From positions 868,001-932,000 of the forward strand of contig NZ_FUZV01000002.1 of assembly GCF_900167565.1 (NCBI RefSeq): a stretch of DNA of 64,000 nt, written 5' to 3'. Position 1 is the first letter of the stretch. The number at the start of each line of letters is the position of its first letter. Positions 15,204 through 18,987 of this stretch are shown here, piece after piece. The DNA is from Pseudoxanthomonas indica. GTDB lineage: Bacteria; Pseudomonadota; Gammaproteobacteria; Xanthomonadales; Xanthomonadaceae. Below the pieces are notes generated by a model that was not told the origin of the DNA, searched no databases, and worked only from the letters and a program-made list of their open reading frames with translations. The translations under genes and the position numbers were made by a program.

Positions 15204-15812
15204 ATGAACCGCAACAAGACCTTGCTGACGCTGACCATCCTGGCGGCCCTGGGCGCGGGCTCGGCCTTCGCCGCCACCCAGTCGTCGGCGGACCCGGACA
15301 CCCGCCCCGCGCGTGCCTCTCTGGACGTCAATGGCGACGGCGTGATTGATCGCACCGAAGCGGCCGCGCATCCGCGTCTGGCCGAGCATTTCGACACGCT
15401 GGACAAGAACAAGGACGGCAAGCTCAATGCCAACGAGCGTCCGCAGCACAAGGGCGGCCGCCATGGTCGCGGACCGCGCGGCGAAGGCATGGCCCGCTTC
15501 AGGCAGCTGGACAAGGACGGCGATGGCCGCATCAGCCAGGCCGAAGCCGCCGCCGAGCCGAAGTTCCAGCAGCGCTTCGCCGACATGGACGCGAACAAGG
15601 ACGGCTTTGTCGATCGCGCCGATCGCGAGCTGCGCGGCAAGCAGCGCCGTGACCAATGGTTCGCGCAGGCCGACACCGACAAGGACGGCAAGCTGAGCCG
15701 CGCCGAGTACGACCAGGCCGCAGCGAAGCGTGGCGAGGATTTCCGCCGCAAGTTCGATGCCCGCGGCGATGGCAAGCGCGCGACCGACGTGAAGCCGCAG
15801 ACCCAGCAGTAA
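15204..15812 (+). CDS. Secreted EF-hand calcium-binding protein
   Basis: A 202-residue protein with a cleavable signal peptide (cut after AFA, about residue 23). Five EF-hand loops can be read: DVNGDGVIDRTE, DKNKDGKLNANE, DKDGDGRISQAE, DANKDGFVDRAD and DTDKDGKLSRAE. The protein is otherwise charged and low in complexity, so it is probably a periplasmic calcium buffer or sensor. It is a single gene with its own terminator, facing away from bpt. The length and repeat arrangement are common in Xanthomonadaceae. Confidence 0.88.
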   Translation: MNRNKTLLTLTILAALGAGSAFAATQSSADPDTRPARASLDVNGDGVIDRTEAAAHPRLAEHFDTLDKNKDGKLNANERPQHKGGRHGRGPRGEGMARFRQLDKDGDGRISQAEAAAEPKFQQRFADMDANKDGFVDRADRELRGKQRRDQWFAQADTDKDGKLSRAEYDQAAAKRGEDFRRKFDARGDGKRATDVKPQTQQ

Positions 15813-15900: not shown

Positions 15901-17046
15901 TCAGAACACCAGGCGACCGCTGAGAATCAGCCCGACCACCAGGCCGATCGTGGCCAGCACCATGCCCAGCACCAGGCCAATCCGGCTGCGGATGCGTTGG
16001 CGACGCAACAGCGCGGCGGTGCCGACGGGATCGCGCAGCATGTCGCGCGCGCGGCGACGCGCCAGGATCCGCGGCAGCCACTGGCCACAGGTCAGGCTGA
16101 TACCCAGCATGTAGGCCAAGGTCACCGCCAGGTGCGGCTGCCAGCCCGGTACGCGCGCCAGATAGCTGATGCCCACCACGAAGGCCAGGATCAACAGCGT
16201 GTTGGTCGCGCCGTACTTGAGCAGTGATTGGCGCTCCTGCTCGTCGAGCGGATCCCGCAGGTACTTGCGGATGCCGTACCAGACCGAGCCGACGCCGGCG
16301 ATCACGCCAAAGGCGATCGCGCCGAACGAGGCGCCCATCACCTTCAGCAGGCCCTTGCCGGCAATGGCGGTGCCGGTGCTCAGCACCGCCGCCGCTGCGG
16401 TCGGCGGCGCAGCCATCGCCAGCGCGCCGATCACCACCGAGGCAAACGCCGCGCCCGGCGCGCTGCTGCGGGCGAAATCGCTGAAGTGCTTCATCAATTC
16501 GTCGCGCACCGTGCCGCGTGCGCGTGACAGGCGCTTGCGCACCGCCGCGTCGGTCAGGCCGAGCAACTGCGCCACCTGCTGCGAGCTCTGGCTTTCGCGA
16601 TAGAACAACAGCAACAGTTCGCGGCTGTCTTCGGGCAGGGCGGAGATGATGTCCGCCGCCACCTGCTCCTGTTCGGTGCGCAACAACAATTCCGCCGGCG
16701 TCGGCGCGCTGTCGGCGGCCAGGCTGATCGCCACTTCCGCGCTTTCGCCGGACAGCGGCCGGTACTGCGCGGCGCGCAGATGATCGCGGGCCAGGTTGCG
16801 GGTGATCTGGCGCAGCCAGGGCAGCAGGCTGTCGGGGTTCTTCAGGCTGCCCAGGTGCTTCCAGGCTTTCAGGAAGGCTTCCTGGGCGATGTCCTCGCTG
16901 GCCTGCACGTCGCGGGTGATCGCCAAAGCGATGGCGGTGATCGCGTTCTGGCAGGCCAGCACGATGCGGCCATAGGCGTCGCGGTCACCGCGCTGGGCGG
17001 CGGGAAATTCCTGGCGCAGGGTCAGTTCGAGGGTGGCGGCGGTCAT
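15901..17046 (-). CDS. ECF sigma factor fused to a C-terminal membrane domain (copy 1)
   Basis: A 381-residue protein. The first half is an ECF sigma-70: region 2 (about 20-90, DVQASEDIAQEAFLKAW and LLPWLRQITRNLARDHLR) and region 4 (about 130-185, ALPEDSRELLLLFYRESQSS and AVRKRLSRARGTVRDELMKH). The second half has at least four hydrophobic segments (about 200-220, 235-255, 285-303, 352-376), so the sigma factor should be membrane-tethered. No separate anti-sigma gene is present. It lies 65 bases after its paralogue (17112-18359) and has its own GTCACA/CGTC promoter-like element and a GGGAG ribosome site. Confidence 0.87.
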   Translation of the reverse strand: MTAATLELTLRQEFPAAQRGDRDAYGRIVLACQNAITAIALAITRDVQASEDIAQEAFLKAWKHLGSLKNPDSLLPWLRQITRNLARDHLRAAQYRPLSGESAEVAISLAADSAPTPAELLLRTEQEQVAADIISALPEDSRELLLLFYRESQSSQQVAQLLGLTDAAVRKRLSRARGTVRDELMKHFSDFARSSAPGAAFASVVIGALAMAAPPTAAAAVLSTGTAIAGKGLLKVMGASFGAIAFGVIAGVGSVWYGIRKYLRDPLDEQERQSLLKYGATNTLLILAFVVGISYLARVPGWQPHLAVTLAYMLGISLTCGQWLPRILARRRARDMLRDPVGTAALLRRQRIRSRIGLVLGMVLATIGLVVGLILSGRLVF

Positions 17047-17080
17047 GGCGTCGTGTTCTCCCGGTGGCTATGGAAACACA

Positions 17081-17106
17081 GACGCGCGGGCAGGGGCCAT
17101 GTGACA
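17081..17106 (-). promoter_or_regulatory. ECF-type promoter of sigma gene copy 1
   Basis: On the minus strand, TGTCACA (17106-17100) is followed after 15 bases by CGTC (17084-17081), 35 bases upstream of the start codon. The -35 element begins just after the stop codon of the upstream sigma gene. The pair resembles the TGTCACA/CGTC promoters known for ECF41-type sigma factors, and the same element with identical spacing precedes the paralogue. Autoregulation is inferred. Confidence 0.65.
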
Positions 17107-17111
17107 GGCGC

Positions 17112-18359
17112 TCAGAGCCGCCCGGCCAGCCGCAGCGCGAACAGCAGCGCCACCAGCACGAACAGCGACGCCCAGACCACGCCCAGCCAGCCGTACAGGC
17201 TTTCGTAGCACCAGTGGATTCGCTTGCCGGGTTGGCCGCGGCGGGCGGCGCGGCGCGCCAGCAGCGGCAGCATCAGCCGGCGCAGCGGCACCAGGCACTG
17301 GTAGTTGACGATCGCCATGCCCACCACGGCCACGCCAAAGACGGCCAGCCAGCCGGTGGTCAGCAGCACGGCCAGGTTGAGCGCGATGCCGACCAAGGCG
17401 GCGGTGCTGGTGTTGATCAGCACGAAACGGCGCAGCGCGCTGCGTTCGGCTTCGGTGTCGGCGTAGCTCAGCAGATAGCGGCCACCGGCGTAGGCGCCCA
17501 GCGCGCCGCCGATGATCGAGCCGAGCACGGTGCCGGTGGCGAAGCCGGCGTTGAAGCTGGCCTGCGCGCCACTTTCCTGCAGCACGCCAAACACGCCGGC
17601 AAAGGATCCAAAGGCGGTGCCGCCGGTCGCGGACACCGCCCCCAGGCCACTGGCGCCCAGCTTGCCGCCGCCCACGGTGGCGGCGGTCGCGCCAATCGCG
17701 ATGGCCGCGCTGGCCACCGGCGCGGTGGTCATCAGGCTGGCCGCCACCAGTACGGTGAAGGCGGTGCCCGGCGCGCTGCGGCGGGCGAAGTCGCCGAAGC
17801 GGCGCAGCATCTCCTCGCGCACCAGGCCGCGCGCGCGCGACAGGCGCTTGCGCACCGCGGCATCGCTCAGCCCCAGCAGGTCCGCCACCTGTTGCGAACT
17901 CTGGCCTTCGCGGTAGTACAGCAGCAGGGTTTCGCGGCTGTCTTCCGGCAGTGCGGAGATGATGTCGGCGGCGGCGATTTCTTCTTCGGTGCGCAGCAGC
18001 TGTTCTTCCGGCGCCGGCGAAGGATCGGCGGCGATGCCGATGGCAAGCTCGGCCGCTTCGCCCGACAACGGCTTGTGGTGCTGCGTGCGCAGATAGTCGC
18101 GCGCCAGGTTGCGGGTGATCTGGCGCAACCACGGCAGGAAGCTGGTGCTGTTCTTCAGCCGATCCAGCCGCTGCCAGGCGCGCAGGAAGGCTTCTTGCGC
18201 GATGTCCTCGCTGGCCTGCACATCGTGGGTGATGGCCAGCGCGATGGCGGTGATGGTGTTCTGGCAGGCCGAGACGATCCGGCCATAGGCTTCCTGGCTG
18301 CCGCGCCGTGCCGACGGCAGTTCCTGCGCCAGCATCAGTTCCAGCGGTTGTGCGCTCAT
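17112..18359 (-). CDS. ECF sigma factor fused to a C-terminal membrane domain (copy 2)
   Basis: A 415-residue paralogue of the next gene, alike through regions 2 (DVQASEDIAQEAFLRAWQRL) and 4 (LPEDSRETLLLYYREGQSSQ and AVRKRLSRARGLVREEMLRR). The membrane half differs: a Gly/Ala-rich stretch (about 195-290) with several weak hydrophobic segments, then strong helices near 318-350 and 390-413. The matched sigma halves and divergent tails suggest a duplication followed by specialisation of the tether or sensing part. It lies downstream of tesB and DUF2007 but has its own promoter-like element. Confidence 0.87.
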   Translation of the reverse strand: MSAQPLELMLAQELPSARRGSQEAYGRIVSACQNTITAIALAITHDVQASEDIAQEAFLRAWQRLDRLKNSTSFLPWLRQITRNLARDYLRTQHHKPLSGEAAELAIGIAADPSPAPEEQLLRTEEEIAAADIISALPEDSRETLLLYYREGQSSQQVADLLGLSDAAVRKRLSRARGLVREEMLRRFGDFARRSAPGTAFTVLVAASLMTTAPVASAAIAIGATAATVGGGKLGASGLGAVSATGGTAFGSFAGVFGVLQESGAQASFNAGFATGTVLGSIIGGALGAYAGGRYLLSYADTEAERSALRRFVLINTSTAALVGIALNLAVLLTTGWLAVFGVAVVGMAIVNYQCLVPLRRLMLPLLARRAARRGQPGKRIHWCYESLYGWLGVVWASLFVLVALLFALRLAGRL

Positions 18360-18390: not shown

Positions 18391-18416
18391 GACGAGATCC
18401 GCCAGGAAATGTGACC
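18391..18416 (-). promoter_or_regulatory. ECF-type promoter of sigma gene copy 2
   Basis: On the minus strand, GGTCACA (18416-18410) is followed after exactly 15 bases by CGTC (18394-18391). It sits in the 67-base gap between the DUF2007 stop and the sigma start. Six of seven -35 bases, all four -10 bases and the spacing match the element of copy 1. Confidence 0.65.
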
Positions 18417-18426
18417 GCGCCGGAAT

Positions 18427-18987
18427 TCAATGCGTTGGCGTGGCGGGCTGGATGCGCACGCGCTCGCTGTCGTCCTGCTGTTCGGCGGGTTGCGCCGGCG
18501 TGGCAGGCGCGGTGGCTGGTGCCGCTGCGGGCGGCGTGGCCGGATCGGACGCCGGCGCAGTGACCGGCGTCGCCACCGGCGGCGCCGCGGCTGGCTTGGC
18601 CTGGCGGTGACGCATCACCGTCACGAACGCGGCCACCGCAATGATGATCAGCAGCACCACGCGGATCCGCCAGGCCCAGGCGCCACGCTTGGGTTCGTCT
18701 TCCTGCGTGCTGCTGAAGGCCAGGGTCGGACCCGCACCCGGGCGGGTGGTTTCCAGCAGGCCGGCCTCGCGCAGGATTTCGCGCGCGCGCGGCTGATCTT
18801 CCGGATGGCGGATCCACACCGACGGCTGCAGGCCCTTGGGCAGCGGCTCGGTATAGCGGAACTGGCTGTTGCGCTGGCCGCGATAGGAGCGCGCATTGGC
18901 CACGTGCACGTCGATGCCGGCGTCGGTGAGCATCTTGGCCACGCCTTCCACGGTTTCCATGCGTTGGCTGGTGAATATCTGGCGCAT
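18427..18987 (-). CDS. DUF2007 'pathogenicity-like' membrane protein
   Basis: A 186-residue protein. The DUF2007 domain (about 1-72) begins MRQIFTSQRMETVEGVAKML and carries GIDVHVANARSYRG and PSVWIRHPEDQPRAREIL; related folds occur in PII-like signal proteins. One membrane helix (about 108-125, VVLLIIIAVAAFVTVM) leads to a Pro/Ala/Thr-rich tail. In Xanthomonas such genes carry the name 'pathogenicity-like protein', but a direct role is not established here. It starts 11 bases after the tesB stop and is probably co-transcribed with it. Confidence 0.8.
   Translation of the reverse strand: MRQIFTSQRMETVEGVAKMLTDAGIDVHVANARSYRGQRNSQFRYTEPLPKGLQPSVWIRHPEDQPRAREILREAGLLETTRPGAGPTLAFSSTQEDEPKRGAWAWRIRVVLLIIIAVAAFVTVMRHRQAKPAAAPPVATPVTAPASDPATPPAAAPATAPATPAQPAEQQDDSERVRIQPATPTH

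Follow-up and report, generated by a model that had tools for sequence, protein, structure and literature searches.

How might an extracytoplasmic function (ECF) sigma factor be controlled when no separate anti-sigma gene accompanies it? ECF signalling usually involves a sigma factor, a membrane anti-sigma factor and proteases. The question is raised by two adjacent genes in a 64,000-nucleotide stretch of the Pseudoxanthomonas indica genome (contig NZ_FUZV01000002.1, positions 868,001 to 932,000; hereafter the window), each of which encodes an ECF sigma factor and a hydrophobic membrane half in a single protein. Our reading, to which we assign a probability of roughly 60%, is that each protein would be a one-component device: its membrane half would hold the sigma half inactive until proteolysis releases it, and a shared promoter would drive the family's own genes together with exporters. 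The architecture, the conservation of the promoter and the joint absence of sigma gene and promoter site come from comparison of genomes, and we infer the inhibition by the membrane half, the signal and the proteolysis.

The two open reading frames (ORFs) lie head to tail on the minus strand, the gene for the 415-residue protein upstream and that for the 381-residue protein downstream (Table 1). Both proteins carry Sigma70_r2 and Sigma70_r4_2 above the curated Pfam cut-offs and score 99.9 and 92.3 bits with NCBIfam TIGR02937 (cut-off 42.9), and by the presence of regions 2 and 4 in both Pfam and NCBIfam they are ECF (sigma-70 group 4) factors. No Pfam model scores above its own cut-off in the second half of either protein; among fused domains, no anti-sigma or SnoaL_2 domain was found above cut-off, and a zinc finger was seen neither as a Pfam match nor as an HxxxCxxC motif. 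BLASTP aligns the two proteins with an E-value of 1e-104, and the likeness is uneven: 136 of 185 columns are identical in the sigma half (74%), with 41 of 46 positions in region 4, vs 50 of 192 (26%) in the remainder. The original prediction, made from the letters of the window, had described adjacent paralogues of 381 and 415 residues with sigma regions 2 and 4 ahead of a hydrophobic half, close in the sigma halves and divergent in the membrane halves; ORFs, Pfam and hydropathy bear out the layout, and the column identities the divergence. It had also noted no separate anti-sigma gene, and none of the six flanking genes (TesB, DUF2007-like, EF-hand, amidase, ATE, EEP) carries an anti-sigma domain by Pfam, a test that leaves an unlinked or Pfam-less anti-sigma outside its reach.

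The same architecture is widespread in the family, and is therefore not a chance product of one genome. Matches at E ≤1e-30 occur in 97 of 198 genomes and 31 of 54 genera, nine candidates per genome having been scored among the matches listed and assignment being by E-value, with the membrane half not checked genome by genome; 12 of the 97 genomes have two neighbouring copies by coordinates. Named loci include those of Stenotrophomonas, Xanthomonas, Pseudoxanthomonas, Lysobacter, Luteimonas and Arenimonas. After removal of 10 partial or broken proteins, 94 were kept for alignment, 86 of them distinct. A tree of the membrane halves divides these into two types, A (66 rows, including the 415-residue protein) and B (20 rows, including the 381-residue protein), with an SH-aLRT value of 100, indicating an old split. 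The tree of the sigma halves mixes the two types, with six changes of type, at least three of them forced by starred branches; this tree is weak, having been built quickly and without bootstrap, with stars on 20 of its 82 inner branches. Either sigma halves were swapped between copies or the tree is too flat; the conflict between the trees suggests an older exchange. Recent gene conversion as the source of the likeness was rejected, as four-fold sites are 68-77% identical in 10 tandem pairs and 59-78% identical in nine cross-species pairs chosen by the analyst.

Hydropathy sets the second half apart from the first. When separate 19-residue stretches with a Kyte-Doolittle mean of at least 1.6 were counted in the 86 distinct proteins, the second half contained one to five (one in 1 protein, two in 7, three in 29, four in 38, five in 11), and the sigma half contained none in 84. 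Averaged over the family and read at a laxer threshold of 1.0, hydropathy shows five segments beyond residue 185 in type B (204-222, 241-259, 279-297, 306-324 and 356-374; mean of 20 rows) and six in type A, one of them weak (205-223, 275-293, 315-333, 341-359 and 392-410, with the weak extra 239-257; mean of 66 rows); this threshold also marks residues 26-44 inside the sigma half of each type (mean 1.2-1.3). The charge of the loops alternates: in type B the mean count of lysine and arginine is 5.6 in 260-278 and 10.1 in 325-355, vs 1.6 in 223-240 and 0.8 in 298-305, and type A behaves alike. This alternation supports a cytoplasmic sigma half, a first segment that crosses the membrane, and five crossings overall; without a crossing by the first segment, the loops richest in lysine and arginine (mean 7.9 in type A, 10.1 in type B) would face the periplasm. 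The predicted periplasmic loops of type B comprise about 18 residues after the first segment and about 8 between the third and fourth, and type A has a stretch of about 50 residues, rich in glycine, alanine and serine, after its first segment.

An AlphaFold2 model of the 415-residue protein contains four long helices between residues 271 and 411, with a confidence score (pLDDT) of 72 for the block 271-280 and 83-97 beyond it. Its overall score (predicted TM-score, pTM) is only 0.45, so the relative placement of its domains carries little meaning, and the model of the 381-residue protein (mean pLDDT 60.8) is too poor for use. On a simplified insertion-energy scale, only the last segment of the 381-residue protein and the last two of the 415-residue protein are favourable and most single segments are unfavourable; the helix count is therefore drawn from hydropathy, from the core of the model and from the positive-inside rule. 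The membrane helices of the original prediction are thus favoured by hydropathy, by the core of the 415-residue model and by loop charge, and disfavoured by the insertion scale and by the low model confidence of the first helix. When the part from residue 226 on was searched by sequence against the Protein Data Bank (PDB), nothing convincing came up (best E 0.093 and 0.23). Among the matches listed, Foldseek points to no fold for the membrane half either: the best 50 of 151 PDB matches are sigma factors or transcription-complex models, and the best 50 of 369 viral matches are mostly sigma factors, some without a name.

A promoter-like motif precedes the genes. The pattern GTCAC[AG]-N14..18-CGTC, drawn up after the upstream regions had been viewed, occurs ahead of 79 family genes out of 88 distinct ones, where first-order shuffles lead one to expect 0.4. 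By type, 65 of 68 A genes and 14 of 20 B genes have it, and the spacer is 15 in 76 of the 79 motif-bearing regions. The strict form GTCACAT-N14-CGTC was found 107 times in 44 genomes, vs 13 times for the reversed pattern: 73 sites (10 reversed) lie in 31 genomes of the window's genus and 34 (3 reversed) in 13 Stenotrophomonas-type genomes. Of these sites 39 precede a sigma gene, 39 a hydrolase gene, and 29 lie elsewhere; seen from the genes, 39 of 55 sigma genes have one. Among 61 strict-site loci examined, L134 (no central site) and L147 (no ORF) were dropped, and in the remaining 59 the downstream gene encodes an alpha/beta-hydrolase of about 487 residues in 22, the sigma factor in 17, a MacA-like protein in 8, a small repeat protein in 6, and something else in 6. 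Two side observations concern further genes behind the motif. At loci L120, L132, L171, L173, L176 and L178 the motif stands some 260 bases ahead of a small protein that looks secreted and carries LPAVTVxP or TLATVQVRPAADQL repeats; the window genome's copy of this protein has no Pfam match. In Xanthomonas-type genomes, and in a single Stenotrophomonas-type genome, the gene behind the motif encodes an ABC transporter ATPase (L244, L246, L255, L256, L183).

The hydrolase and MacA-like genes point to a predicted exporter regulon. In the window genome, genes for an ABC ATPase and an ABC-2 permease come after the hydrolase gene (Abhydrolase_1, TAP-like); behind the MacA-like gene (HlyD) lie one ABC ATPase gene and two genes for MacB/FtsX-type permeases. 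The hydrolase gene, which played no part in motif discovery, is present in 44 of 44 genomes and the sigma gene in 40. The strict site stands before the hydrolase gene in 39 of the 40 genomes with sigma, the fortieth having a site one mismatch off the strict form, and in none of the four without (Fisher 3.7e-5, relatedness ignored); the best matches in the sigma-less regions have 3, 4, 4 and 2 mismatches, within the null range of 2-5. The MacA-like gene was searched for in 30 genomes and found in 29; an exact GTCACA-N15-CGTC lies no more than 200 bases from it in 23 of the 26 that have sigma and in 0 of the 3 that lack it (Fisher 0.0055), the sigma-less regions having best matches with 1, 2 and 3 mismatches. 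These comparisons suggest that the proteins are probably autoregulated, membrane-tethered sigma factors that control exporters, serving a single promoter class from two membrane inputs.

Distant relatives of 484-585 residues (14 in alignment A3, L108 left out; alignment A1 holds 50 of 65 type A relatives) share the sigma half, an F-T-x-x-V-like motif past region 4 and a hydrophobic C-terminal half. Their hosts are Alteromonas, Teredinibacter, Gilvimarinus and Neiella, and they also occur in metagenome bins of Gammaproteobacteria, Verrucomicrobiota, Planctomycetota and Hydrogenedentes; at E ≤1e-40 the distant-type profile matches 27 of 151 genomes of the order in four families, both window genes included. 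The membrane halves were compared by hhalign, each pair being controlled with one reversal and three block shuffles. Type B alone matches the distant set with E 3.5e-14, and with 1.1e-8 beyond residue 218, where the juxtamembrane motif is cut (best of four controls 8.3e-6); type A beyond the juxtamembrane motif gives 2.6e-6 (four controls 0.016 or worse). Type A vs type B gives 6.5e-35, and block shuffles reach 5.4e-17 because 19-column blocks stay whole. Homology of the membrane halves with the distant set is likely on these scores, less surely so for type A. All 15 distant relatives compared, near-duplicates in several cases, are preceded by a site GTCA[CT][CG]-N15..17 with a different second element, and its chance value of 0.06 is too favourable because the pattern was chosen after viewing. 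Three distant relatives (L100, L105, L110) carry C-terminal glycine-rich repeats (G-x-x-S-V-G and similar), like a hydrophobic repeat domain, which the window proteins lack.

We propose that a polytopic C-terminal inner-membrane domain, with about five crossings and the sigma half in the cytoplasm, would keep the sigma half inactive at the membrane. Both proteins would recognise GTCACA-N15-CGTC, and their targets would be their own genes, the operon of exported alpha/beta-hydrolase and ABC exporter, and the MacA-like exporter operon. Since the periplasmic loops are short, sensing would probably take place in the membrane itself, for which the intramembrane-sensing kinases are a precedent. The common motif and the near-identical region 4 argue for a common output, and the unlike membrane halves for different inputs, so that the two membrane types may represent two inputs; the original prediction of one output wired to two inputs fits the 41 of 46 identical region 4 positions, the motif before both genes, the split of the membrane tree against the mixed sigma tree and the lack of a Pfam anti-sigma domain in the six flanking genes. 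Its further proposal, a membrane half acting as built-in tether or sensor with release by proteolysis or a conformational change, is hypothetical, which leaves the prediction supported in part. Release would occur at the weak, proline-broken first helix, by a site-1 cut at its Ala-x-Ala end and then by RseP, or in an alternative step by conformational change. A192, A196, P197 and F201 (415-residue numbering) are present in 86 of 86 alignment rows, P214 of the first helix is invariant in 51 type A rows, and the first-helix pattern F...P...A-x-A occurs in 81 of 86. Intramembrane proteolysis is the favoured route because the first helix is weak, its proline is conserved, its end is small-x-small as in RsiV and RsiP, and IutY is freed by proteases.

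Several observations weigh against this reading. The first helix lies in residues 196-248, where the 415-residue model has a pLDDT below 50, and its insertion energy is +3.7 in the 381-residue protein and +2.7 in the 415-residue protein, a marginal hydrophobicity; Ala-x-Ala is easily met by chance in an alanine-rich stretch; and the M50 (RseP-type) protease encoded in the genome says little, since each of the 14 control genomes encodes such a protease as well. In the window genome the relaxed pattern (8 sites) shows no enrichment over its reversal (15), which leaves the stricter pattern and conservation to carry the promoter case; at 16 of 55 sigma genes no strict site is seen within 220 bases, and the 29 strict sites elsewhere stand, among those fetched, before MacA-like (8) and repeat-protein (6) genes. 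In most genomes the MacA site is only 9-12 bases away from the start codon, which implies a nearly leaderless message (the distance is 133-134 in four genomes), and one sigma-less genome retains a MacA-like site with one mismatch. The 13 Xanthomonas-type genomes give a weaker signal, with 23 sites vs 11 for the reversed pattern; the sites lie chiefly before sigma, MacA-like and ABC ATPase genes, and no hydrolase is among the genes assigned to them, the assigned gene start being apparently wrong at four sites (L237, L258, L242, L243). In three of the four sigma-less genomes (L188, L189, L190) the hydrolase follows a small helix-turn-helix regulator gene; in the three readable sigma-bearing loci, those of the window genome and of two congeners, it follows a reductase-like gene. 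The loss of the site may therefore reflect changed context, as if hydrolase control had been rewired in those three genomes. Because the genomes are related the effective sample is smaller, and the losses of sigma it contains include few independent ones.

The most serious rival, which we consider rather unlikely though far from negligible, is that cleavage never takes place: the helix bundle would shift so as to expose the sigma half, which would recruit polymerase while still tethered. Membrane-bound regulators such as ToxR and CadC would be the parallel. The confident membrane core of the 415-residue model agrees with it, as does the invariance of A196, P197 and F201, as in an internal contact, and the five best Foldseek matches are sigma chains from anti-sigma complexes (AlgU-MucA, SigW-RsiW); the placement of domains in the model means little at its pTM. 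Against this rival, a tethered sigma factor would need to quit polymerase at elongation, and the weak proline-bearing first helix would resemble the substrate of an intramembrane protease.

Two further rivals would place control in other proteins. The real anti-sigma could be a different protein, for instance the neighbouring DUF2007-like one, which would leave the membrane half as an anchor only: in all 59 named loci tesB and the DUF2007-like gene lie ahead of the sigma gene and share its strand, the DUF2007-like gene adjoining it among the tested genes in 57, and the DUF2007-like protein has one hydrophobic helix by eye. The DUF2007-like gene is, however, retained in 4 of 4 sigma-less genomes, which rules it out as a dedicated partner, its Pfam score is below cut-off, and the predicted sigma promoter sits between the two genes; we consider a separate regulator improbable. 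Slightly more improbable still is that some other ECF factor, an ECF41-like one for instance, acts through the motif, and that the fused proteins are regulated by it and are not regulators. The ECF41 promoter TGTCACA-n16-CGTC is nearly identical (PMC3426412), and the window genome has 17 sigma-like matches at E ≤10, both genes and weak ones counted. Such a factor would not be expected to leave the hydrolase without a strict site in 4 of 4 sigma-less genomes and the MacA-like gene without an exact one in 3 of 3, and the motif stands before most family genes, with a related site, from a post hoc pattern, before the partly near-duplicate distant relatives.

Table 1. Features of the two sigma genes and their surroundings in the window
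Feature	Coordinates	Strand	Basis
Type A membrane-fused ECF sigma gene, 415 aa, upstream of pair	17112..18359	-	ORF, Pfam, family search, alignment
Sigma-70 region 2, 415-aa protein, residues 29-93	18081..18275	-	PF04542, 55.3 bits
Sigma-70 region 4, 415-aa protein, residues 132-177	17829..17966	-	PF08281, 47.5 bits
Juxtamembrane motif and marginal first helix, 415-aa protein, residues 187-225, FxxFARxSAPxxAF...P...AxA	17685..17801	-	Alignment; low model confidence
Four-helix membrane core, 415-aa protein, residues 271-411	17127..17549	-	Hydropathy, AlphaFold2
Type B membrane-fused ECF sigma gene, 381 aa, downstream of pair	15901..17046	-	ORF, Pfam, alignment
Sigma-70 region 2, 381-aa protein, residues 30-94	16765..16959	-	PF04542, 50.2 bits
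Sigma-70 region 4, 381-aa protein, residues 132-177	16516..16653	-	PF08281, 44.5 bits
Juxtamembrane motif and first helix, 381-aa protein, residues 187-225	16372..16488	-	Alignment
Remaining membrane segments, 381-aa protein, residues 234-375	15922..16347	-	Hydropathy; model weak
Predicted autoregulatory ECF promoter of 415-aa gene, GTCACA-N15-CGTC	18391..18415	-	Motif conservation
Predicted autoregulatory ECF promoter of 381-aa gene, GTCACA-N15-CGTC	17081..17105	-	Motif conservation
DUF2007-like gene just upstream of sigma pair, context only	18427..18987	-	Pfam 21.3 bits, cut-off 25.7
Convergent EF-hand gene, context only	15207..15812	+	Pfam

Among the other neighbours, EF-hand, ATE and EEP genes are also seen at 50 of 59 named loci, and an EF-hand match lies between the DUF2007-like and sigma genes in 2 of 59. 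In the sigma-less genomes tesB, DUF2007 and ATE flank the empty site in 4 of 4; the EF-hand gene, convergent with the sigma genes, is retained in 3 of 4. Some individual loci are unusual. L077, L079, L086 and L088 have split frames or no open frame over the sigma match (none in L086) and look broken, and the second sigma copy of L049 is fragmentary. JAHREJ010000043.1 (L048), labelled Bacillus subtilis, bears a Stenotrophomonas-type locus, indicating contamination or mislabelling.

The anti-sigma part fused in IutY of Pseudomonas putida belongs to siderophore signalling and is FecR-like, and the extension of the ECF41 factors is soluble. IutY (ECF243), said to be the one characterised fused case, joins a sigma factor and a membrane anti-sigma in one protein that is freed by Prc and RseP, and a truncated form is active without signal (PMC8999054). 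The window proteins share the joining of sigma and membrane parts, but have no fused anti-sigma Pfam domain. The actinobacterial ECF48, ECF52 and ECF53 (SCO4117) likewise have a C-terminal membrane extension, for which release by proteolysis was proposed; theirs consists of a zinc finger and one to two helices (PMC8999054), whereas the window proteins have about five hydrophobic segments and no HxxxCxxC. Some ECF36 members also fuse a polytopic part of three to four helices, but at the N-terminus and carrying DUF2275 (PMC8999054). ECF41 factors share the fused regulatory C-terminus, and their promoter comes close to the motif found here, with a spacer one base longer; they differ in their SnoaL_2 domain and their targets (PMC3426412). 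The likeness to RsiV and RsiP, which are cut by signal peptidase at a small-x-small site beside the helix and then by site-2 protease (PMC8844934), is a proposed analogy for cleavage at the first helix; these are separate anti-sigma proteins of Bacillus, and cleavage of the window proteins is only predicted. A C-terminal five-helix ECF domain without an anti-sigma domain was not met in the open-licence literature searched (PMC8999054, PMC8103513, PMC13147305, PMC8567305, PMC3426412, PMC8844934), and no account of this layout in Lysobacteraceae was found in open-licence literature, which is weak evidence. An ECF factor with a fused membrane regulator is thus known, and the variant with about five helices and no anti-sigma domain is set apart by published descriptions, the 2021 ECF reclassification lying outside the comparison. 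What appears to be new is the promoter motif ahead of the family genes and of the predicted exporter operons.

A broader view, which we put forward tentatively and think somewhat doubtful, is that these proteins and their distant relatives belong to an ancient, cross-phylum class of sigma factors that would sense through a helix bundle, be cleaved at a signal-peptide-like helix and act through a GTCAC promoter on themselves and on exporters, tandem copies swapping sigma halves and keeping their sensors. If the proposed mechanism is true, the cell may sense membrane trouble with a single protein. Sensor and switch are seemingly one protein with a predicted promoter and exporter regulon, so that a single reporter and a small set of deletions could put the idea to the test. 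The two adjacent genes are in this respect a natural experiment, in which similar sigma halves stand behind two unlike membrane parts.

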